From an uncultured Bacteroidales bacterium (GTDB lineage Bacteria; Bacteroidota; Bacteroidia; Bacteroidales; JAUNSR01): a stretch of 64,000 nt of DNA. The stretch is taken from positions 1-64,000 of the forward strand of contig CAMTOJ010000006.1 of assembly GCA_947074145.1 (NCBI GenBank), read 5' to 3'. Below, one piece after another: positions 1-21,186 of this stretch. Every line of letters starts with the position of its first letter. Positions within the stretch are counted from its first letter, which is position 1. The notes under the pieces are model-generated. The model had not been told where the DNA came from. It worked only from the letters and a program-made list of their open reading frames with translations, and searched no databases. The position numbers and the translations under genes are program-made.

Positions 1-51
1 AGCATCTGCCTTACAAGCAGAGGGTCGGCGGTTCGAATCCGTCAACGCCCA
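1..51 (+). tRNA. tRNA-Val(TAC), 3' part only
   Basis: This is the 3' portion of a tRNA cut by the window edge. From the anticodon arm onward it is identical to the complete copy at 86-160. The loop CTTACAA gives anticodon TAC (valine, GTA codons). The T arm with GTTCGAATC and the 3' acceptor strand AACGCCC are intact, discriminator A is at 51, and CCA is not encoded. Confidence 0.93.
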
Positions 52-85
52 CTAATTGACTTTCGTTAATGTATAAACCCAAAAA

Positions 86-160
86 GGGCGTTTAGCTCAG
101 CTGGTTCAGAGCATCTGCCTTACAAGCAGAGGGTCGGCGGTTCGAATCCGTCAACGCCCA
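86..160 (+). tRNA. tRNA-Val(TAC)
   Basis: This is a complete tRNA. The acceptor stem GGGCGTT pairs with AACGCCC, the D arm contains TTAGCTCAGCTGG, the anticodon loop CTTACAA carries anticodon TAC, and the T loop is GTTCGAATC. The discriminator base is A and no CCA follows. It repeats the partial tRNA 34 bases upstream, so the two are a tandem duplication, probably in one transcript with the following tRNA-Leu. Confidence 0.97.
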
Positions 161-184
161 CCTTTTTGAAAAAAAAGATCCAAT

Positions 185-266
185 GCGGATGTGGTGTAAT
201 TGGTAGCCACGTCAGACTTAGGATCTGATGCCGAGAGGCGTGGGGGTTCGAGTCCCTTCATCCGCA
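185..266 (+). tRNA. tRNA-Leu(TAG)
   Basis: This is an 82-base class II tRNA. The acceptor stem GCGGATG pairs with CATCCGC. The anticodon stem TCAGA/TCTGA encloses the loop CTTAGGA, giving anticodon TAG (leucine, CTA codons). A long variable arm (GCCGAGAGGCG) fits leucine tRNAs. CCA is not encoded. It closes a short tRNA cluster and is followed directly by a terminator. Confidence 0.96.
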
Positions 267-267
267 C

Positions 268-10222: not shown

Positions 10223-12250
10223 TTAAGTCAGGTCGATATCAATGATAAATTCTGCACCATCTTTATATTCCGGATTTAAAATTATAGTTCCGTTTAATTT
10301 TTCGACTATCGATCTACATATTGACAAACCAAGACCGGCTCCTGTGGAGAAATCATCCAATTTTTCAAATCTTTCAAAAATCAATTCTCTTTTATCATCC
10401 GGTATTCCACAGCCAGTATCCCTAATATAGAATTTTAATCTGTCGCCATCATAAAAAAGTTCTAATGTAATTTTTCCTTCATCTGTAAATTTAGCTGCAT
10501 TCTCAAGTACAAAATTAAGTATTTGCTTAAGTTTGTGATAATCGGTGGTAATGATTAGATTTTCATAAAGAGATATAAATTCGAACTCTAAATCTTTTTC
10601 AATTGTCTTTGCGAAAGAATCTAAAGTATATTTTGCAAAAACAACAACATCATTTTTCGTATTATTAATATTGATAATCTTAGAATCAAGTCTACTGAGA
10701 TCCAGGATATTATTTATAAGTTTTATAAGCAAATCTGAATTCATTTTTATTATTTCGCTATACTCTTTTTCTAAACTCTCTTCGCTCGCAGAGGAGGAAA
10801 TAAGCTCAGAGAAACCTGCAATAGCATTGAGAGGGGTACGAAGCTCATGACTCATATTTGCCAGAAAAGAACTCTTTAATCTATTACTTTCGTTAGCTTT
10901 ATCCCTCGCCATTTCCATGTGAGATTTGGCTCTAAGCAGATCATTCCTTTCTTTAATCAATTCCTTTTGAGTAAGTCTAAGTTTCGTTTTCATTTTTCTT
11001 GAACGAACATAGAAAATAATCATTACAATAATAACGATAAAGATAAAGACCGTAATAATTATAGTAAGCTTGTATAAACTCTTTTGCTGTAATACTTTAA
11101 GATGAGCAGACTCCGTTTTGATATTATTTATTTCCTCATTAACAAAATAATTATCAACATTATTTCTTACCCTTTTATCGTAATTATTTTTTTGATTTTC
11201 TAAATATTCACTAAGTATCTCGTTTGCTTTTTCATATTCTCCCTTCATTCCATAAAAGAAGAATAACCTGCTAAGCAAAGAACTATCATCCTTTTTATAT
11301 TCAAGAGCTTTTAAAATTTCATTTTTTGCATTTTCACAATCAAACATCCTAAGATAGAACTCAAAAAGAGCATAGTGAGTACTCTTTTCAACATACCAAT
11401 CATTTATTTTTGGCATTACCTTTAGCTCTTCAACGTATTTATTTGAAATTTTAAGATCACCCTTTTGAATATTAACAAAGAGTCTGAAAATAGTACAAAA
11501 CTTTCTGCACCAGTCTTCCGGTAGAGAAGAAGATTCCGATTCAATATCTTTGTTCACATAATCTTCAAAAATATCAATGTAGTAATTCGCTTCATCAAGT
11601 TCTTTTTTGTGAAGACTCGTTTCTATCATATAAATATATAACTGAGCTTTTAGACTTATTCTAGTTGCATTGTTTTCCTCAATTATTCTTATTGCATTAA
11701 GAAATGATTCTTGACCTTTTTCGTAATTTTCAATCTTGACATACATCTTACCCATAATAATATTATGGATAAGATTAAAATTATAGTCATTTGTAGCTTT
11801 AGCAAAATCTTGTAATTTCTTCACAGAAGATAAAACATTTTCAAAACGATTCTCATGAATATCAATAAAACATAAATACGAAAAAGCAGAACAAAATTCA
11901 AAATAGAATTTATGTTCCATCGCAATCGGCTCGAGTCGTTTCATATAATACATCACACTATCATTAATATCTCTATTATAATAATTGCGAGTTATATCTC
12001 TATATGACTTGATTGTCACTTTGTGATTTTTTGTTTTATCAGAAATACTTATAATGTCAAGACAATAATTCACCTCTTTGCTCGTGTTGAAATTCAAACG
12101 AGCCAATTCAGTAAGTATATTTATTTTCTTTTCATTTGAAGTGGTATTTTTAAGTTCATTGAGCAATGTAATTTCGTTCTCTTCATTTTCCGAAAAAGAG
12201 AGAAATATATTGAATAGAAAAAGTATAGAAAATAAGATATATTTTTTCAT
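10223..12250 (-). CDS. TPR sensor histidine kinase
   Basis: This is a membrane histidine kinase of 675 residues. A signal-like N-terminus (MKKYILFSILFLFNIFLSFS) precedes a long periplasmic helical region with tetratricopeptide-like repeats. One membrane helix lies near residues 388-409, followed by a short coiled coil and the kinase core. The HisKA H-box is SHELRTPLN with phospho-acceptor His468. The HATPase region shows the N box (NFVLENAAKF), the DTGCGIPDD G1 box and the GAGLGLSICRSIV G2 box. There is no receiver or DNA-binding domain, and no response regulator is encoded in the window, so the partner is unknown. It lies 17 bases after a paralogous kinase and is probably cotranscribed with it. 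Confidence 0.9.
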   Translation of the reverse strand: MKKYILFSILFLFNIFLSFSENEENEITLLNELKNTTSNEKKINILTELARLNFNTSKEVNYCLDIISISDKTKNHKVTIKSYRDITRNYYNRDINDSVMYYMKRLEPIAMEHKFYFEFCSAFSYLCFIDIHENRFENVLSSVKKLQDFAKATNDYNFNLIHNIIMGKMYVKIENYEKGQESFLNAIRIIEENNATRISLKAQLYIYMIETSLHKKELDEANYYIDIFEDYVNKDIESESSSLPEDWCRKFCTIFRLFVNIQKGDLKISNKYVEELKVMPKINDWYVEKSTHYALFEFYLRMFDCENAKNEILKALEYKKDDSSLLSRLFFFYGMKGEYEKANEILSEYLENQKNNYDKRVRNNVDNYFVNEEINNIKTESAHLKVLQQKSLYKLTIIITVFIFIVIIVMIIFYVRSRKMKTKLRLTQKELIKERNDLLRAKSHMEMARDKANESNRLKSSFLANMSHELRTPLNAIAGFSELISSSASEESLEKEYSEIIKMNSDLLIKLINNILDLSRLDSKIININNTKNDVVVFAKYTLDSFAKTIEKDLEFEFISLYENLIITTDYHKLKQILNFVLENAAKFTDEGKITLELFYDGDRLKFYIRDTGCGIPDDKRELIFERFEKLDDFSTGAGLGLSICRSIVEKLNGTIILNPEYKDGAEFIIDIDLT

Positions 12251-12267
12251 TTAATAATAAAGATATT

Positions 12268-14307
12268 TTAAAGCGGGTGTTCGAAGATAAACTTCGCTCC
12301 GTTGACGTATGTCGGGTCTATATATAATTTTCCATTAAGTTTTTCAGAAATAGAACTACAAATCCAGAGACCGAGTCCTGTTCCACTGTCCTGTTCATTG
12401 ATTTTTTCAAACTTTTTAAAAACCTTTTCATGATTACTTATCGGTATTCCACACCCGGTATCTGTTACTACAAACTTTAAGTGGTTTTTATCAATTATAA
12501 TTTCAAGAGTTATTTCCCCCTCTTGAGTAAATTTTGCTGCATTTCCAAGAAGATTAGTAAGAATTTGCTGAATTCGGAAAATATCTGTTCTGATAATAAA
12601 TGAATCCACATTTGATTTGATATTTATTCTGACATTCGGTTTTATTATCTTATCTATACTACTAACAACATTATGTGCACATTTCATAACATCGGAATCT
12701 GCATATTCTATACTTATTGATTCGGATTCTAAACGACTCTGATTAACAATATCATTAACAAGTTTCAGTAATAAGACCGAGTTGCTTTGTATAATAGAGG
12801 CAAATTCTTTATCAACGTTTAAGTCATCTCCCTCTTCAATAATAAGTTCGCTAAAACCAATTATGGAATTTAATGGTGTTCTTATTTCGTGGCTCATTGA
12901 AGCAAGAAATGCTGTTTTTTTAATGTTACTCTCTTCTGCTTGTTTAAGCACATCCTCAAGGTTACGTTTGGTTATTTCCAACATCCTTTTCTCTTCATTT
13001 AGAGATAAGGCTGATGTCTGTAGTTTTCTCTCGTATTTGTTATTGTAAAGAATAAGAGCTATTACAAAAGATAGAATTAGTATAAGTAATAATAATAGAA
13101 AATAATTTACTCTGTTTTTTTCACGTTGAGCCAAGTATTCAAGTTCACTATTTTCCAATTGTGCATAGAATAGCTCGGTTTGTTCTTTTAGGATATCAAA
13201 CTCTTTGACAAATAATTCTTTCCATGCCCCGACCTGCTTATCAAGCGCAAAACTATACTGTGCATAAGCTTCTTTATGGAGCCCCATTTTTGAATAGATA
13301 TCACCTTTATAGCCAAAATAAGTTTCAGTTTCACGGGTAGGATTAAGATCTATGCTTTTATTAATAGCATCTAAGGCTTTCTCAAGATCGTTTATCAAAA
13401 CATAGTATTGAGCTTTAACATAGAAAAAATAGGGTCTATTATAGTTAGCAGAATTATCTGAATGTTTATCTGCAAGATCAAGATAATATTTTGCATTTTC
13501 TATATCTTCTTCTCCCAGATAATAAAGGAAATGATAATAATAATTGTACCATTCTGCTTTCGCTATGGCAAATGATGGCACAGTTTTTTTCTGTTGATCA
13601 TCTAAAAATTTAGAAAAATCATTTAATGCCTGTATTTTTTTTTCAGAATCAGTATTGTCAAACACAGCCATTAATAAATAGAGATAAATTTGACATTTCA
13701 GAGGATCTCGATGAGGAAGGAATACCATTAAATCAAGTCCTTGTTCATAGAAATTTACCGCTTTTTTATAATTTTTGGTCTGATAATTGATTAATCCTAA
13801 AATCTGAAAACAACCCACTTTACCCTCATAACTATTCATTCGTTCTGCTTCATCTTGGATTGAAAGAATCATATTTGAGGCAACGGTAAAGTTTTTGTTA
13901 CGTACATACCACATACAGCCGAATATTTGAGTATTAAAGTAAAACTCATAGTTATTCGCTCTATGACAGGCTTCAGTAGTTTTGTCTATCCATAGAAAAA
14001 GAGAGTCTTTTTGTTCCTTATTAAAATGTACACGAGCAATATTTGCATAAGCTTTTATTTTAATGATATCTTTTCCTAAGCTATCTGCAATTTCAGATTG
14101 TAATTTATACCAATGAGTCGAGTTTGAAGCGCCAAGATCCTGGTTAAATAATTCTCCGATTAATTCAAGTTTCCGTTCATAGTCAGATGTATTATTAATC
14201 TCTTCTTTTAATAAGGTAATTTTCTTTTGAGATTCCGATGTGTTAGCATTCGCTATGTTAAAACAAAAATTGAATATTAAAAACGTAAATATTAATAAAT
14301 AATGCAT
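12268..14307 (-). CDS. TPR sensor histidine kinase (paralogue of the next gene)
   Basis: The 679-residue protein has the same architecture as its neighbour: signal peptide (to ANANTS), periplasmic TPR-like repeats (units such as AVNFYEQGLDLM and ALDAINKSIDLNP), a membrane helix near residues 398-416, and a kinase core. The H-box is SHEIRTPLN with His473. The HATPase boxes include NLLGNAAKF, DTGCGIPIS and GTGLGLWICSSIS. It is the first gene of the pair. The two proteins are clearly diverged (moderate identity by eye), so the tandem is an old duplication. Bacteroidetes TPR kinases often sense unknown envelope or nutrient cues; the ligand is not evident here. Confidence 0.9.
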   Translation of the reverse strand: MHYLLIFTFLIFNFCFNIANANTSESQKKITLLKEEINNTSDYERKLELIGELFNQDLGASNSTHWYKLQSEIADSLGKDIIKIKAYANIARVHFNKEQKDSLFLWIDKTTEACHRANNYEFYFNTQIFGCMWYVRNKNFTVASNMILSIQDEAERMNSYEGKVGCFQILGLINYQTKNYKKAVNFYEQGLDLMVFLPHRDPLKCQIYLYLLMAVFDNTDSEKKIQALNDFSKFLDDQQKKTVPSFAIAKAEWYNYYYHFLYYLGEEDIENAKYYLDLADKHSDNSANYNRPYFFYVKAQYYVLINDLEKALDAINKSIDLNPTRETETYFGYKGDIYSKMGLHKEAYAQYSFALDKQVGAWKELFVKEFDILKEQTELFYAQLENSELEYLAQREKNRVNYFLLLLLILILSFVIALILYNNKYERKLQTSALSLNEEKRMLEITKRNLEDVLKQAEESNIKKTAFLASMSHEIRTPLNSIIGFSELIIEEGDDLNVDKEFASIIQSNSVLLLKLVNDIVNQSRLESESISIEYADSDVMKCAHNVVSSIDKIIKPNVRINIKSNVDSFIIRTDIFRIQQILTNLLGNAAKFTQEGEITLEIIIDKNHLKFVVTDTGCGIPISNHEKVFKKFEKINEQDSGTGLGLWICSSISEKLNGKLYIDPTYVNGAKFIFEHPL

Positions 14308-14657: not shown

Positions 14658-14689
14658 TTTTGGAATGTAAATTCAACTGTTTATATTTG
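14658..14689 (+). promoter_or_regulatory. promoter of the leu operon
   Basis: TTTTG at 14658-14662 and TATATTTG at 14682-14689 are 19 bases apart, an almost ideal Bacteroidetes promoter. The start site would be near 14693-14696, about 30 bases before the leader-peptide ATG. Confidence 0.82.
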
Positions 14690-14725
14690 CACTCATAAAA
14701 TAAATAAGCCTAATTATTGGAGACA

Positions 14726-14782
14726 ATGATCAACAATTCACTAAATATTAATTCAATTATTATTCTGCTCTCTGGAGATTGA
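14726..14782 (+). CDS. Ile/Leu-rich leader peptide of the leu operon attenuator
   Basis: This 18-codon open frame reads MINNSLNINSIIILLSGD and ends in TGA at 14780-14782. Five codons are Ile (positions 2, 8, 11-13) and three are Leu (6, 14, 15), including an uninterrupted Ile-Ile-Ile-Leu-Leu run. GGAG at 14719-14722 is a possible ribosome-binding site. The frame begins about 30 bases after the predicted start of transcription and precedes mutually exclusive hairpins and a terminator ahead of leuA. That is the classical layout of ribosome-mediated attenuation, in which stalling at scarce Leu- or Ile-tRNA prevents termination. The function is inferred from layout and codon content. Confidence 0.82.
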   Translation: MINNSLNINSIIILLSGD

Positions 14783-14870
14783 GTAGTAAGGAGGTTATGT
14801 GCATGTGAATTGTAAATTATAAAGATATTCAAGCCTTTCTTACTTAAATGTAATGAAAGGCTTTTTTTTG
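14765..14870 (+). promoter_or_regulatory. leu attenuator: alternative RNA structures
   Basis: Segment 1, CTGCTC (14765-14770), contains the last Leu codons of the leader peptide and pairs with segment 2a, GAGTAG (14781-14786). Segment 2b, GTAAGGAGG (14786-14794), is complementary (two G-U pairs) to segment 3, CTTTCTTAC (14835-14843), which is the 5' arm of the terminator. A ribosome stalled on the Ile/Leu run would cover segment 1, free segment 2 to pair with 3, and block the terminator. A ribosome reaching the stop codon would cover segment 2 and allow termination. The pairings are read directly; the mechanism is inferred. Confidence 0.75.
14831..14870 (+). terminator. attenuator terminator before leuA
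   Basis: AAGCCTTTCTTAC and GTAATGAAAGGCTT form a stem (one bulged T) around TTAAAT, followed by eight T residues. It lies 28 bases before the leuA ATG. Confidence 0.93.
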
Positions 14871-14897
14871 ATATGATAATAAGAAAAACTTAAATAT

Positions 14898-16394
14898 ATG
14901 TCTGATAAATTATTCATTTTTGATACTACATTGCGAGACGGAGAGCAGGTTCCGGGATGTCAGTTAAATACAGTTGAGAAGATTCAGGTTGCCAGAGCAT
15001 TAGAGTCTTTAGGTGTTGATATTATAGAAGCAGGATTTCCGGTATCAAGTCCCGGTGATTTTAATTCTGTAGTAGAAATTTCCAAAGCAGTAACATGGCC
15101 AGTTGTTTGTGCTCTTACAAGAGCTGTAGAAAGAGATATTGATGTTGCGGCTGAGGCATTGAAATATGCTAAACGCGGACGTATTCACACAGGTATCGGA
15201 ACATCGGATTATCATATCAAACATAAATTCAACTCAACAAGAGAAGAGATTATCGAAAGAGCTGTGGCAGCAGTAAAATATGCTAAACGTTATGTTGAAG
15301 ATGTGCAGTTTTATGCCGAAGATGCAGGTAGAACAGACAATGAGTATCTTGCTCGTGTGGTTGAGGCTGTAATCAAGGCCGGAGCAACAACAATCAATAT
15401 CCCGGATACAACAGGATATTGTCTTCCTGAACAATTCGGAAAAAAAATACTTTACCTAAAAGAGAATGTGGTGGGTATTGATAATGTTGTTATCGCTACA
15501 CACTGTCATAATGACCTTGGAATGGCAACAGCAAATACAGTATCAGGGATAATGAACGGAGCGCGTCAGGCAGAGGTAACAATTAATGGTATCGGAGAGC
15601 GTGCCGGAAATACATCTCTTGAAGAGGTCGCTATGATTATGAAATGTCATCATGATCTTAATATCGAAACCAATATTAATACACAACGTATCTCAAGCGT
15701 AAGTAAGATGGTTTCGGGTCTTATGAATATGCCGGTTCAGGCAAATAAGGCAATTGTTGGTCGTAATGCTTTTGCTCATAGTTCGGGTATTCATCAAGAT
15801 GGAGTTTTGAAAAATCGCGAGAGCTACGAAATAATAGATCCTAAAGATATAGGTCTTGATGAAAACTCTATACAACTTACTGCACGATCAGGAAGAGCAG
15901 CACTTAAATTCCGCTTAGAGATGCACAATGTCAATCTTGATAAAGAACATCTTGATCAAGTATATGAGAAATTTCTTAAGCTTGCAGATTCTAAGAAGGA
16001 TATCAATGATGACGATATATTGATGCTTGCCGGTCAGGAGAGAGCATCTTCTCATAGAATTAAGCTAGATTATCTTCAGGTTACTTCAGGAATAGGAGTA
16101 AAACCTATCGCAAGTGTAGGATTAGAAATTGCCGGAGAACGTTTTGAAGCGGCAGCAACCGGTAACGGCCCTATTGATGCTGCTATAAAGGCAGTTAAAC
16201 AGATTATTAGCAGAAAAATGACACTTCAGGAATTTGTTATACAAGCCATTACTAAAGGAAGTGATGATATTGGTAAAGTTCATATGCAGGTTGAACATAA
16301 AGGAATGATTTACTATGGATTTGGAGCCAATACGGATATTATAGCCGCTTCTATTGAAGCATATATAGATGCAATAAATAAGATAAACGAGTAA
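14898..16394 (+). CDS. leuA: 2-isopropylmalate synthase
   Basis: LeuA condenses acetyl-CoA with 2-oxoisovalerate in the first committed step of leucine synthesis. The 498-residue protein starts with the TIM-barrel motif [14 protein letters not shown] (metal-binding D14) and has the metal-binding HCHND motif with His202 and His204. The catalytic barrel is followed by linker subdomains and a C-terminal LeuA allosteric domain (about 360-490), the site of leucine feedback inhibition in the family. It is the first structural gene after the attenuator, and leuC follows 15 bases later. Length and motif set are those of a true LeuA, in contrast to the second synthase at 18505. Confidence 0.96.
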
Positions 16395-16409: not shown

Positions 16410-17804
16410 ATGAATACATTATTTGATAAGATTTGGGATTCGCATGTTGTAAGTTCAGTGTCAGATGGTCCCGTACAGTTGTATATAGATCGTCATTACT
16501 GTCACGAAGTAACATCGCCACAGGCTTTTGAAGGACTAAGAACAAGAGGTCTTAAAGTATTTCGTCCGGCACAGACAACATGTTCACCGGATCATAATAT
16601 TCCTACAATAAATCAGGATCAGCCTATTTCAGATCCTATTTCAAGAAATCAGGTTGAAACACTTGAAAAGAACGCAACAGAATTCGGGGTAACTTATTAC
16701 GGATTGGGAAATCCTAAGAATGGTGTAATCCATATTATCGGTCCTGAAAATGGAATAACAAGACCAGGTATGACTATCGTATGTGGAGATTCTCATACAT
16801 CAACACACGGAGCATTCGGAGCTGTTGCTTTCGGTATCGGAACATCAGAGGTTGAAATGGTGCTTGCATCACAATGTATCTTGCAGTCTAAACCAAAGAC
16901 AATGCGTATCAATGTAAACGGAAAGCTTGGCAAAGGTGTAACAGCTAAGGATGTTGTACTTTATATAACTTCAAAGGTGACAACCGGAGGAGGAACAGGA
17001 TATTTTATCGAATTTGCAGGTGATGTGATTCGTAATATGAGCATGGAGGAGAGAATGACCGTCTGCAATATGAGTATCGAGATGGGTGCTCGTGGCGGTA
17101 TGATTGCTCCAGACCAGACTACTATAGATTATGTAAAAGGAAGAGAATTTGCCCCTAAAGGTGAAGAATGGGATAAGGCAGAGGCTTACTATCGCACTCT
17201 TTATTCAGGTGATGACGCAGTGTTTGATAAAGAACTTTATTTCGATGCTGAGGATATCAAACCGATGGTAACTTACGGAACTAATCCGGGTATGGGTATG
17301 GCTATCGATTCAGCAATTCCTACGCTTGACACTATTGATGAGGCAGGAAAAGAAACATATATCAAATCACTTGATTATATGGGATTCAAACCGGGGGAAA
17401 AGATGCTTGGCAAGAAGATTGATTATGTATTCCTTGGAAGTTGTACTAACGGACGTATTGAGGATTTCAGAGAGTTTGCTTCTTATGTAAAAGGTAAGAA
17501 AAAAGCAGAAGGTATCGTATGCTGGTTAGTACCTGGTTCTTGGGGTGTAGAAAAACAGATAAGAGAAGAGGGACTTGATAAAATTCTTAATGAAGCAGGA
17601 TTTGAGATTCGTCAACCTGGGTGTAGTGCTTGTCTTGCTATGAATGATGATAAAGTGCCGGCAGGCAAATATGCTATGTCAACTTCAAACAGAAACTTTG
17701 AAGGTCGTCAGGGTCCGGGAGCAAGAACAATACTTTGTGGTCCGCTCGTAGCAGCTGCTGCAGCAATAACTGGTCATATTACTGATCCGAGAGAAAATCT
17801 TTAA
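16410..17804 (+). CDS. leuC: 3-isopropylmalate dehydratase, large subunit
   Basis: LeuC is the iron-sulfur subunit of isopropylmalate isomerase and interconverts 2- and 3-isopropylmalate together with LeuD. The 464-residue protein has the aconitase-family motif [14 protein letters not shown] and the three [4Fe-4S] ligands C345 (GSCTNG), C405 and C408 (GCSAC). Family length is normal. It sits 15 bases after leuA and 13 before leuD. In organisms with a citramalate pathway the same isomerase also acts on citramalate, relevant because a second synthase gene follows in this operon. Confidence 0.97.
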
Positions 17805-17817
17805 AAAGAAATTTATT

Positions 17818-18414
17818 ATGAAACAGAAATTTACAACAATAACATCATCATATTATCCTCTTCCTATTGAGAATGTAGATACGGATCAGATCATTCCGGC
17901 TCGTTTCCTTAAAGCTACAGATAAAGAGGGATTCGGCGATAATCTTTTCTTTGACTGGAGATATACTAAATCGGGAGAAAAGAATCCGGAGTTTGTTTTA
18001 AATAATGATAAATATACAGGCGAGGTGCTTGTTGCCGGAAAGAATTTCGGTAGCGGATCGAGTCGCGAACATGCAGCTTGGGCTGTGGCAGGTTTTGGAT
18101 TTAGAGTAGTGGTATCAAGCTTTTTTGCTGATATTTTCAAAAATAATGCTTTGAACAACGGAGTACTTCCTGTGGTTGTAAGCGAAGATTTTCTTGCAGA
18201 GATATTCGAATCAAATAAGAAAGATCCTAAGAATACCGTTACAGTAGATCTTGAAACACAGACAATCACAAATAACGGAACAGGAAAGAAAGAGAATTTC
18301 GATATCAATTCTTATAAGAAAAACTGTTTGCTTAACGGATATGATGATATCGATTATCTTTTAAGCAAAAAAGAGGAGATCGTGGGTTATGAGACTCAAC
18401 ATCCTGGGCTTTAA
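17818..18414 (+). CDS. leuD: 3-isopropylmalate dehydratase, small subunit
   Basis: LeuD is the swivelling-domain partner of LeuC. The 198-residue protein has the family signature [13 protein letters not shown] near the start and the conserved [13 protein letters not shown] loop, which binds substrate in the shared active site, followed by [19 protein letters not shown]. Length is normal for bacterial LeuD. The start ATG lies 13 bases after the leuC stop. A hairpin with T-rich tail follows, 28 bases after its stop, possibly reducing readthrough to the second half of the operon. Confidence 0.97.
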
Positions 18415-18504: not shown

Positions 18505-20046
18505 ATGAGATTTGAAATAATGGATACTACACTTAGGGATGGAGAACAGACCTCGGGTGTTGCATTTAACTCTAATGAAAAACTTAATATTGCCAGATTT
18601 CTTCTTGAAGAGGTTGGAGTGGATCGTCTTGAGATTGCATCGGCAAGGGTATCTGATGGGGAATATCAGGGTGTAAAAAGAATTGTTGAATGGGCTGAGT
18701 CGACAGGCCGAATTCCTCAGATTGAGGTGTTGGGATTTGTTGATAACGGTGTATCTATTAATTGGATTAAGTCTGCCGGCTGTCAGGTGATGAATTTGCT
18801 AGCCAAAGGATCACTAAAACATTGTGAAAGTCAATTAAGAAAAACTCCTGAACAACATTTTGATGATGTTCGCCGAAATGTAGAGATGGCAAAAACCGAG
18901 GGTATAGATGTAAATCTTTATCTCGAAGATTGGTCTAATGGAATGCTTAATTCTCCAGACTATGTATTTGATATGATTGAATCATTAAAAGATTCCGGTA
19001 TAAAACGATTTATGTTATCAGATACCTTAGGGATACTTTCTCCATATCAAACCTTTTCAATGTGTACCAAGATACTTAAAAGATTTCCTGAACTTCATTT
19101 TGATTTTCACGGACATAATGATTATGACCTTGCTGTGTCAAATGCATTTGCCGCAGCCAAAGTGGGAGTACAGGGATTACACTGTACAGTGAATGGACTT
19201 GGCGAAAGAGCGGGTAATGCAACATTGTCGAGTCTTGTAGCAGTTCTTCATGATATGCTTGATGCGGAAACAGGAATTAACGAAGAGAAACTTAATCAGG
19301 CAAGTCGATTGGTTGAATCTTACTCGGGAATTCGAATATCGGGTAATACACCTATCGTAGGTGAGAATGTTTTTACTCAATGTGCGGGAGTGCATGCTGA
19401 TGGAGACTCCAAAGACAAATTGTATTTTAATGATCTTTTGCCTGAACGTTTCGGTCGAATGAGAGAATATGCACTTGGGAAAACTTCCGGTAAAGCTAAT
19501 ATAAGCATGAATTTAGAAGCTTTAGGAATAAATCTTGATGATGAGTCGATGAGGAAGGTTACTCAAAGGATTATAGAACTTGGTGATAAGAAAGAGCTTG
19601 TAACTCAAGATGATCTACCTTATATAATGGCAGATGTCCTTCAACAGGACTCAGATGATACACATGTAAAGATCCTTAATTATTCATTATCTCTTGCACA
19701 CGGATTAAAACCTTTTGCCGCTCTTAAGATTGAGATAAACGGAGAGGTCTATGAATCATCCTCTTCCGGTGATGGTCAGTATGATGCTTTTATGAAGGCT
19801 TTACGTAAGGTATATACCGAGCAACTTGAACGACAATTTCCCACACTGACCAATTATTCGATTACAATACCTCCGGGTGGACGTACGGATGCATTGGTAC
19901 AGGCTCTTATTACATGGGATTTCAATAGTTTATCGTTTAAAACCAAGGGGCTTGATGCAGACCAGAGTGAGGCGGCTATAAAAGCAACAATCAAAATGCT
20001 GAATAAGATTGAAAAATTGATTTCAGAAGAAAACAAACAGAATTAA
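18505..20046 (+). CDS. 2-isopropylmalate/citramalate synthase family enzyme (second synthase)
   Basis: The 513-residue protein belongs to the DRE-TIM metallolyase family. It has [13 protein letters not shown] with metal-binding D12, the metal-binding HGHNDYDLAVSNA motif, GLGERAGNATL, and a C-terminal LeuA-type regulatory domain (about 375-505). It differs clearly from the operon's own LeuA in sequence and barrel-loop composition. It most likely makes (R)-citramalate from pyruvate and acetyl-CoA, giving 2-oxobutyrate for isoleucine through LeuCD and LeuB. The alternative is a second isopropylmalate synthase. The Ile-rich leader peptide supports an isoleucine role for the operon. Motif reading cannot prove substrate choice. 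Bacteroides species have the same gene order as far as I recall. Confidence 0.88.
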   Translation: MRFEIMDTTLRDGEQTSGVAFNSNEKLNIARFLLEEVGVDRLEIASARVSDGEYQGVKRIVEWAESTGRIPQIEVLGFVDNGVSINWIKSAGCQVMNLLAKGSLKHCESQLRKTPEQHFDDVRRNVEMAKTEGIDVNLYLEDWSNGMLNSPDYVFDMIESLKDSGIKRFMLSDTLGILSPYQTFSMCTKILKRFPELHFDFHGHNDYDLAVSNAFAAAKVGVQGLHCTVNGLGERAGNATLSSLVAVLHDMLDAETGINEEKLNQASRLVESYSGIRISGNTPIVGENVFTQCAGVHADGDSKDKLYFNDLLPERFGRMREYALGKTSGKANISMNLEALGINLDDESMRKVTQRIIELGDKKELVTQDDLPYIMADVLQQDSDDTHVKILNYSLSLAHGLKPFAALKIEINGEVYESSSSGDGQYDAFMKALRKVYTEQLERQFPTLTNYSITIPPGGRTDALVQALITWDFNSLSFKTKGLDADQSEAAIKATIKMLNKIEKLISEENKQN

Positions 20047-20112: not shown

Positions 20113-21186
20113 ATGAAATTAAAAATCGCAGTATTACCGGGTGACGGAATAGGACCGGAAATAATTGAGCAGGCATTGAATGTCACTAAAGCTATTTGTG
20201 AAAAATTCGGACATGAGATAGAATATACATACGGAATTTGCGGTGCAGCTGCAATCGATAAGGTTGGTAATCCTTATCCTGATGATACTCATCAGATCTG
20301 TATGGAGAGCGACGCAGTACTTTTCGGTGCTGTGGGAGATCCGAGATTTGATAATGATCCATCGGCAAAAGTTCGTCCTGAGCAGGGACTTCTTGCAATG
20401 AGAAAGAAACTTGGTCTTTATGCAAATATTCGTCCTGTTACTACTTTCCCTTGTCTTATTCATAAATCACCACTAAGAGCAGATCTTATCGAGGGGGCTG
20501 ATTTCATGTGTATCAGAGAACTTACAGGTGGTATGTATTTCGGTCGTCCACAGGGTCGCTCAGAAGATGGCAACACTGCTTACGATACTTGCGTTTATAC
20601 TCGCGAGGAGATTGAAAGAATCGTAACTCTTGCTTATGAGTATGCTATGAAACGCAGAAAGAAAGTGACAATTGTAGATAAAGCTAATGTTCTTGCTACA
20701 TCACGTCTTTGGAGAGAGGTCGCAAAAGAGATTGCTCCTAAATATCCAGAAGTGGAAACTGAATTTATGTTCGTTGACAATGCGGCAATGCGTATGATTC
20801 AGTGGCCTAAAGATTTCGATGTTATGGTTACTGAAAATATGTTTGGAGATATCCTTACAGACGAAGGTTCGGTAATCACCGGTTCTATGGGTATGCTTCC
20901 TTCTGCTTCTATCGGAACTTATACTTCAGTATTTGAGCCTATCCACGGATCATGGCCACAAGCAGCGGGACAGAATATCGCTAATCCTCTTGCAACTATT
21001 CTTTCGGCTGCAATGATGTTTGATTATGCTTTTTCTCTTAAAGCTGAGGCAAAACTTATTCGTGATGCCGTTGATGCATCTATGGATCAGATGGTAAGAA
21101 CAGGAGATATTCAGGAAGCAGGAAACAAAAACTATTCAACTTCGGAAGTTGGTGAGTGGATTGTTGATTTTATAAAAAAGAATTAA
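20113..21186 (+). CDS. leuB: 3-isopropylmalate dehydrogenase
   Basis: LeuB oxidatively decarboxylates 3-isopropylmalate with NAD+ to give the 2-oxo acid precursor of leucine. The 357-residue protein has the family motifs [10 protein letters not shown] at the N-terminus, [27 protein letters not shown] and the metal/substrate segment [22 protein letters not shown]. Length is normal. It closes the leu operon. If the second synthase makes citramalate, LeuB or a related dehydrogenase would also be needed for 3-methylmalate; that dual use is inferred, not visible in the sequence. Confidence 0.97.

Follow-up and report, generated by a model that had tools for sequence, protein, structure and literature searches.

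The leu operon of E. coli and Salmonella is preceded by the leuL attenuator, whose leader frame uses cognate codons, the rare Leu codon CUA among them, and which has three alternative helices and an intrinsic terminator, and the ilvGMEDA operon of E. coli has in ilvL a multivalent branched-chain leader. Sensitive attenuators such as E. coli leuL typically use rare cognate codons. In Actinobacteria, leader-peptide attenuation has been predicted for branched-chain and leucine genes (PMC1262725). A 2010 survey knew of leader-peptide systems only in Proteobacteria and Actinobacteria besides its own Firmicutes cases (PMC2965389), and neither it nor a 2013 survey (PMC3766115) reports such systems in the phylum to which the Bacteroidales belong. 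Within that phylum, amino-acid operons in Flavobacterium psychrophilum have been suggested to be under leader-peptide attenuation, with hisG and pheA elements that are conserved in Flavobacteriaceae (PMC9723704), and in B. thetaiotaomicron leader-like small frames have been noted and attenuation noticed in general form (PMC7366714). The F. psychrophilum leaders share with the element described here the phylum, the amino-acid operons and the proposed mechanism, and the main text of that study describes no leu operon, helices, codons or Bacteroidales. The literature that we searched, which did not take in the survey of Lopatovskaya et al. (2010), does not describe a leu attenuator from Bacteroidales. 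The claim of the initial annotation, which knew of no described leader-peptide attenuator for leu operons in Bacteroidetes but allowed for related predictions, should be moderated, as attenuation had already been proposed for F. psychrophilum and noticed in B. thetaiotaomicron.

The leader described here occupies positions 14659-14870 of the window, by which we mean the whole stretch of 64,000 nucleotides analyzed from contig CAMTOJ010000006.1 of an uncultured Bacteroidales bacterium, and lies ahead of leuA (ATG 14898). All of its elements are on the + strand and were read directly from the window sequence. A Bacteroidetes-type promoter (14659..14689), with TTTG at -33 (14659-14662) and TATATTTG at -7 (14682-14689), is followed by a leader peptide frame of 18 codons, MINNSLNINSIIILLSGD (14726..14782, ATG 14726-14728, TGA 14780-14782), which contains five Ile and three Leu codons and in which the conserved I/L run, Ile11-Ile12-Ile13-Leu14-Leu15 (14756-14770), forms the putative regulatory site. 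Fold and covariation both indicate a 1:2 hairpin (anti-antiterminator and possible pause hairpin; 14757..14789), where TTATTATTC (14757-14765) pairs with GAGTAGTAA (14781-14789). Strand 2, AGTAAGGAGG (14785..14794; GGAAGTGAG in most relatives), is also the 5' strand of the antiterminator, and strand 3, CTTTCTTACT (14835..14844), can pair either with strand 2 or with strand 4. In the 2:3 antiterminator, GTAAGGAGG (14786-14794) pairs with CTTTCTTAC (14835-14843), with up to 10 pairs if the helix is extended, and the intrinsic 3:4 terminator with its U tract (14831..14870), recognized from sequence, fold and covariation, has a stem of AAGCCTTTC (14831-14839) and GAAAGGCTT (14855-14863) followed by a T run. 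The promoter, frame, antiterminator and terminator that the initial annotation had placed in this order at 14658-14897 were all located. The hairpin that it drew from the last Leu codons also exists, but its best fold is that given above, and the pairing of CTGCTC with GAGTAG represents this hairpin in another register. A pause-like element, GG-N6-TGTG (14790..14801), lies 11 nt past the 1:2 hairpin and matches the conserved box of the relatives. This G(G)TATGT / GGCTGTGTA box, located 3' of strand 2, is conserved in the leu, ilvD and pheA leaders of Bacteroidales beyond what pairing requires, and it is possible that it serves as a polymerase pause signal.

The locus therefore presents a predicted frame with a cognate codon run upstream of the operon, mutually exclusive antiterminator and terminator helices, a 1:2 hairpin containing the regulatory codons, and a stop codon at which a ribosome would mask strand 2. 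The proposed mechanism is the same as that of the enterobacterial leu and ilv attenuators, although the leader stands outside the Rfam leu leader family, since it gave no covariance-model match to RF00512 at the gathering score. It differs further from leuL in using Ile and Leu codons where leuL uses Leu only, in the cimA-like gene within the operon, in its Bacteroidetes promoter, and in sequence and strand layout. In contrast to ilvL, the leader is almost without Val, and the Bacteroidales ilvD leader (Ile/Leu/Val, see below) is the closer functional match. The actinobacterial leu and ilv leaders share the predicted mechanism but belong to another phylum (PMC1262725).

The operon contains leuA (2-isopropylmalate synthase, 14898..16394, above the cut-offs of TIGR00973 and NF002086), leuC (16410..17804), leuD (17818..18414), a citramalate synthase-like (cimA-like) gene (18505..20046) and leuB (20113..21186), all on the + strand, with leuC, leuD and leuB assigned by profile search. 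The best model for the cimA-like gene is NF042433 (CimA) at 658 bits, which is below the Leptospira-specific cut-off of 950, while the next best, a leuA model, reaches 344; the gene did not attain the NCBIfam equivalog cut-off for CimA, scoring 165 bits with TIGR00977 (cut-off 450). From its best model we infer a probable citramalate synthase specificity, and we call the gene CimA-like only. The order leuC-leuD-cimA is kept wherever the contig is long enough, a few loci ending early or holding extra intergenic DNA. Citramalate synthase together with LeuCD and LeuB leads to 2-oxobutyrate, the isoleucine precursor, and the operon most likely serves both the leucine and the isoleucine pathways, with LeuCD and LeuB shared, but not that of valine, which would explain why the leader contains Ile and Leu codons and almost no Val. 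On the minus strand, upstream of the leu operon and divergent from it, are two hybrid sensor kinase-like genes in tandem (window 10223-14307; 675 and 679 aa).

The alternative that survives best accepts the attenuator and supposes that it responds chiefly to leucine (or chiefly to isoleucine), with a structural role for the remaining codons. Codon usage lends this some weight. The Leu codons are the rare CTA and CTC, with CTA making up 36% of Leu codons in the leaders and 2% in leuA, and the Ile codons, which are located in the 1:2 hairpin arm, are nearly all ATT (83% in the leaders versus 41% in leuA). Part of the codon bias may serve the hairpin. On the other hand, the Ile and Leu runs are both conserved across lineages in spite of sequence drift elsewhere, and leuA is in one operon with a citramalate synthase-like gene. 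We regard sensing of mainly one amino acid as a real but tentative option, and our preferred reading is an attenuator that responds to both.

The comparison across Bacteroidales that the initial annotation had called for revealed the same arrangement, an Ile/Leu frame with covarying helices, ahead of leuA at 64 of 76 related loci, the loci counted being those LeuA relatives of the genome collection whose upstream sequence spans 200 nt or more. Examples of the leader peptide are MNQSFIHILLCGIIILLAKVGGSECRA in Bacteroides fragilis, MKQNIANSLIISLNIILLWERDRK in Parabacteroides, MNRSYLHILLLGIIILLQNK in Paludibacter and MNNFGLLHIINIIIRLQDGVGSEKVCM in Prevotella, and a closer relative (G004) retains the version MYSFNTYTLLCILLTSG, as read by eye. 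The promoter is conserved as well: 61 of 62 relatives (7% of shuffles) have a -7 box, TAnnTTTG, within the 80 nt that precede the leader ATG, at a median distance of 34 nt from the ATG, and 60 relatives also have TTG at the -33 spacing. The leader is absent at 12 of the 76 leuA loci, including those of Paramuribaculum and some Symbiothrix. At one locus (L056) a terminator-like hairpin lies about 47 nt before leuA, near a promoter and without a leader frame, looking like the remnant of a lost attenuator. Leaders of Paraprevotella and Prevotella (L070, L080, L047 and L065) have Arg (CGA) at one of the Leu codon positions (..IRLQ..), conserved within the group, and this codon may serve timing or the 1:2 hairpin. 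A search of the other sampled orders of the class for leaders immediately ahead of leuA gave none, and neither did one for ilvD leaders.

The three helices could be evaluated separately. Strands 2 and 3 co-vary, the combinations GTGAG/CTCAC, GTAAG/CTTAC, GCGAG/CTCGC, GGTAG/CTACC and GAGAG/CTCTC all being present. When strand 2 is realigned by its consensus, with pairing left out of account, 21 cells of the 2:3 helix show changes in both strands compared with 8.9 ± 2.4 after shuffling (0 of 2000, with 37 distinct combinations), where it should be noted that shuffle tests on related sequences, here and below, do not give true probabilities. The cognate 2:3 pairing score is 1299 versus 1102 ± 19 when partners are permuted, and the pairing is lost when the partner is slid along the sequence. 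An earlier per-column count for this helix (alignment A1) was discarded because MAFFT had misplaced strand 2 by one column in half of the rows. The 3:4 terminator helix has 35 double-sided changes versus 9.2 ± 2.3 shuffled (0 of 500). For the 1:2 hairpin, whose 5' arm is formed by the last Ile-Leu-Leu codons, the strand 1 pairing is short and its register differs between lineages. Its score with its own partner is 15.3 versus 12.45 ± 0.32 with the permuted partners of other lineages (0 of 5000 as high), a clear result, whereas a folding test, in which its pairing probability was compared with that obtained after shuffling the upstream sequence, gave a weak difference (0.77 versus 0.69, p 0.003) because strand 2 readily finds partners. 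All three helices agree and share their strands in mutually exclusive ways. The spacing also fits: the median distance from the last I/L codon of the run to strand 2 is 15 nt, and the stop codon is inside or beside strand 2, most commonly as the TGA within GGAAGTGAG (30 leaders), so that strand 2 would remain accessible while the ribosome is stalled at the run and would be masked once the ribosome has reached the stop. A pyrimidine-G step 11-13 nt past the end of the 1:2 hairpin is present in 85% of leaders, compared with 25-42% at nearby offsets, and is where a hairpin-type RNA polymerase pause would be expected, although this is suggestive only.

The leader RNA folds at -43 kcal/mol, compared with -28.4 ± 3.5 kcal/mol for shuffled sequences (z -4.2, with 0 of 200 as good), and a frame together with a terminator arose in 1 of 4000 dinucleotide shuffles of 14693-14897, the criterion being an ATG frame of 10-36 codons that includes an uninterrupted stretch of five I/L/V codons and is followed by a terminator of nine pairs or more. 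Among the 24 genes of the window that have non-coding upstream DNA, only leuA is preceded by a frame with an I/L/V run and a terminator. Generic sigma-70 and terminator scans of the window speak neither for nor against the leader, as they follow the rules of E. coli, which do not hold for this type of promoter, and the terminator scan missed the leader terminator because its inner bulge and loop break the rule. Folding of partial transcripts agrees with the initial proposal that stalling would expose the antiterminator: with a stalled ribosome and the polymerase just beyond strand 3 the predicted structure is the 2:3 antiterminator, and with the ribosome at the stop codon it is the terminator. 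The completed terminator remains the more stable fold even in the stalled state, and antitermination would therefore depend on timing, as it does in E. coli.

The strongest evidence for the attenuator reading is codon specificity across operons. A search with a covariance model of the leu leaders turned up related leaders ahead of other genes. In the genome of the window, where the run of the leu leader is IIILL, MITNYTIIRLISSILVVVA ahead of ilvD (G000:C3) has the run ILVVV, MKSITIHHHHFSQR ahead of hisG (G000:C32) has HHHH, MNNSINNLWWWRLQLLKS ahead of the trp genes (G000:C1) has WWW, and MQHTNATYFRFYFYYFYSNSKSGNLCM ahead of pheA (G000:C11) has FRFYFYYFY. In the relatives, a rule blind to composition, which takes the longest frame ahead of the best terminator, gave 22% His in his leaders, 13% Trp in trpE leaders, 21% Phe and 15% Tyr in phe leaders, and 20% Val in ilvD leaders (VV in 12 of 13) versus 2% in leu leaders. 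A threonine leader was sought ahead of thrA and not found. Across all long loci, 283 genes are preceded by non-coding DNA, and the 53 leaders with an Ile/Leu/Val-type run found among them were all ahead of leu, ilv or phe genes; since most long loci were fetched for holding genes of these types, what counts is the lack of such a leader at every other gene there. His leaders ahead of hisG extend to further orders and classes within the phylum, whereas Ile/Leu/Val leaders were not seen there. The initial reading as a ribosome-dependent attenuator is supported in every respect that sequence can address, with the frame, run, three helices, promoter and spacing conserved with covariation and the codons following the operon product.

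These data also bear on the idea that the frame is a small gene for a functional hydrophobic peptide (membrane or toxin-like, for example) with a terminator of its own, leuA being merely downstream. The peptide is indeed short, hydrophobic and conserved, with a terminator 3' of its frame, but the homologous leaders carry poly-His, poly-Trp or Phe/Tyr runs that each fit their operon, and the 5' arm of the terminator is complementary to the end of the frame, with covariation; on these grounds we rejected the idea as highly improbable. We likewise rejected, as having next to no likelihood, a riboswitch or T-box-like element that senses a metabolite or uncharged tRNA directly, the frame being incidental, for although riboswitches too use alternative helices and a terminator, neither the leader nor its relatives match any Rfam family (the T-box model RF00230 gave no covariance-model match to this leader), there is no conserved aptamer core besides the switch strands and the short box, codon identity follows the operon product, and the leaders favor rare codons.

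We conclude that the leader very probably acts on the leu operon as a transcription attenuator of the classical ribosome-dependent kind. From the anatomy, conservation, covariation, operon-specific codons and rare-codon bias evident in the sequence, we infer a mechanism comprising a transcription start, pausing, stalling and a response to each amino acid. Transcription would start near 14693-14697, a ribosome would begin to translate the 18-codon frame, and RNA polymerase may pause near 14800, right after the 1:2 hairpin has formed. When charged Ile-tRNA or Leu-tRNA is scarce, the ribosome would stall at Ile-Ile-Ile-Leu-Leu in strand 1 and open the 1:2 hairpin, and the freed strand 2 would pair with strand 3, so that no terminator forms and leuA-leuC-leuD-cimA-leuB is transcribed. 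When both tRNAs are charged, the ribosome would reach the TGA just before strand 2 and cover that strand, allowing the 3:4 terminator to form, and if the frame is not translated the 1:2 hairpin would form and lead to termination as well. The Ile and Leu codons would match LeuA, for leucine, and the citramalate synthase-like enzyme, for isoleucine.

More broadly, we consider it likely that Bacteroidales by default control their leu, ilv, his, trp and phe operons through classical leader-peptide attenuation (with his leaders phylum-wide), that this attenuation arose apart or has long been separated from the proteobacterial systems, and that its leu version is a two-amino-acid sensor for an operon of leucine and citramalate-isoleucine synthesis. 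A complete set of codon-specific attenuators in Bacteroidales fills a gap left by the 2010 survey (PMC2965389), and such attenuators offer an explanation for how amino-acid synthesis is tuned in abundant gut bacteria.

Two further observations concern the surroundings of these leaders. An FopS sRNA (Rfam RF04319, 73 bits) is located at 2035-2105 on the minus strand of L107 (G000:C3), some 500 nt upstream from the leader of ilvD in the same genome. A tRNA gene cluster at window positions 1-267 includes tRNA-Val(UAC) and tRNA-Leu(UAG), the latter of which decodes CUA, the codon enriched in the leu leaders.
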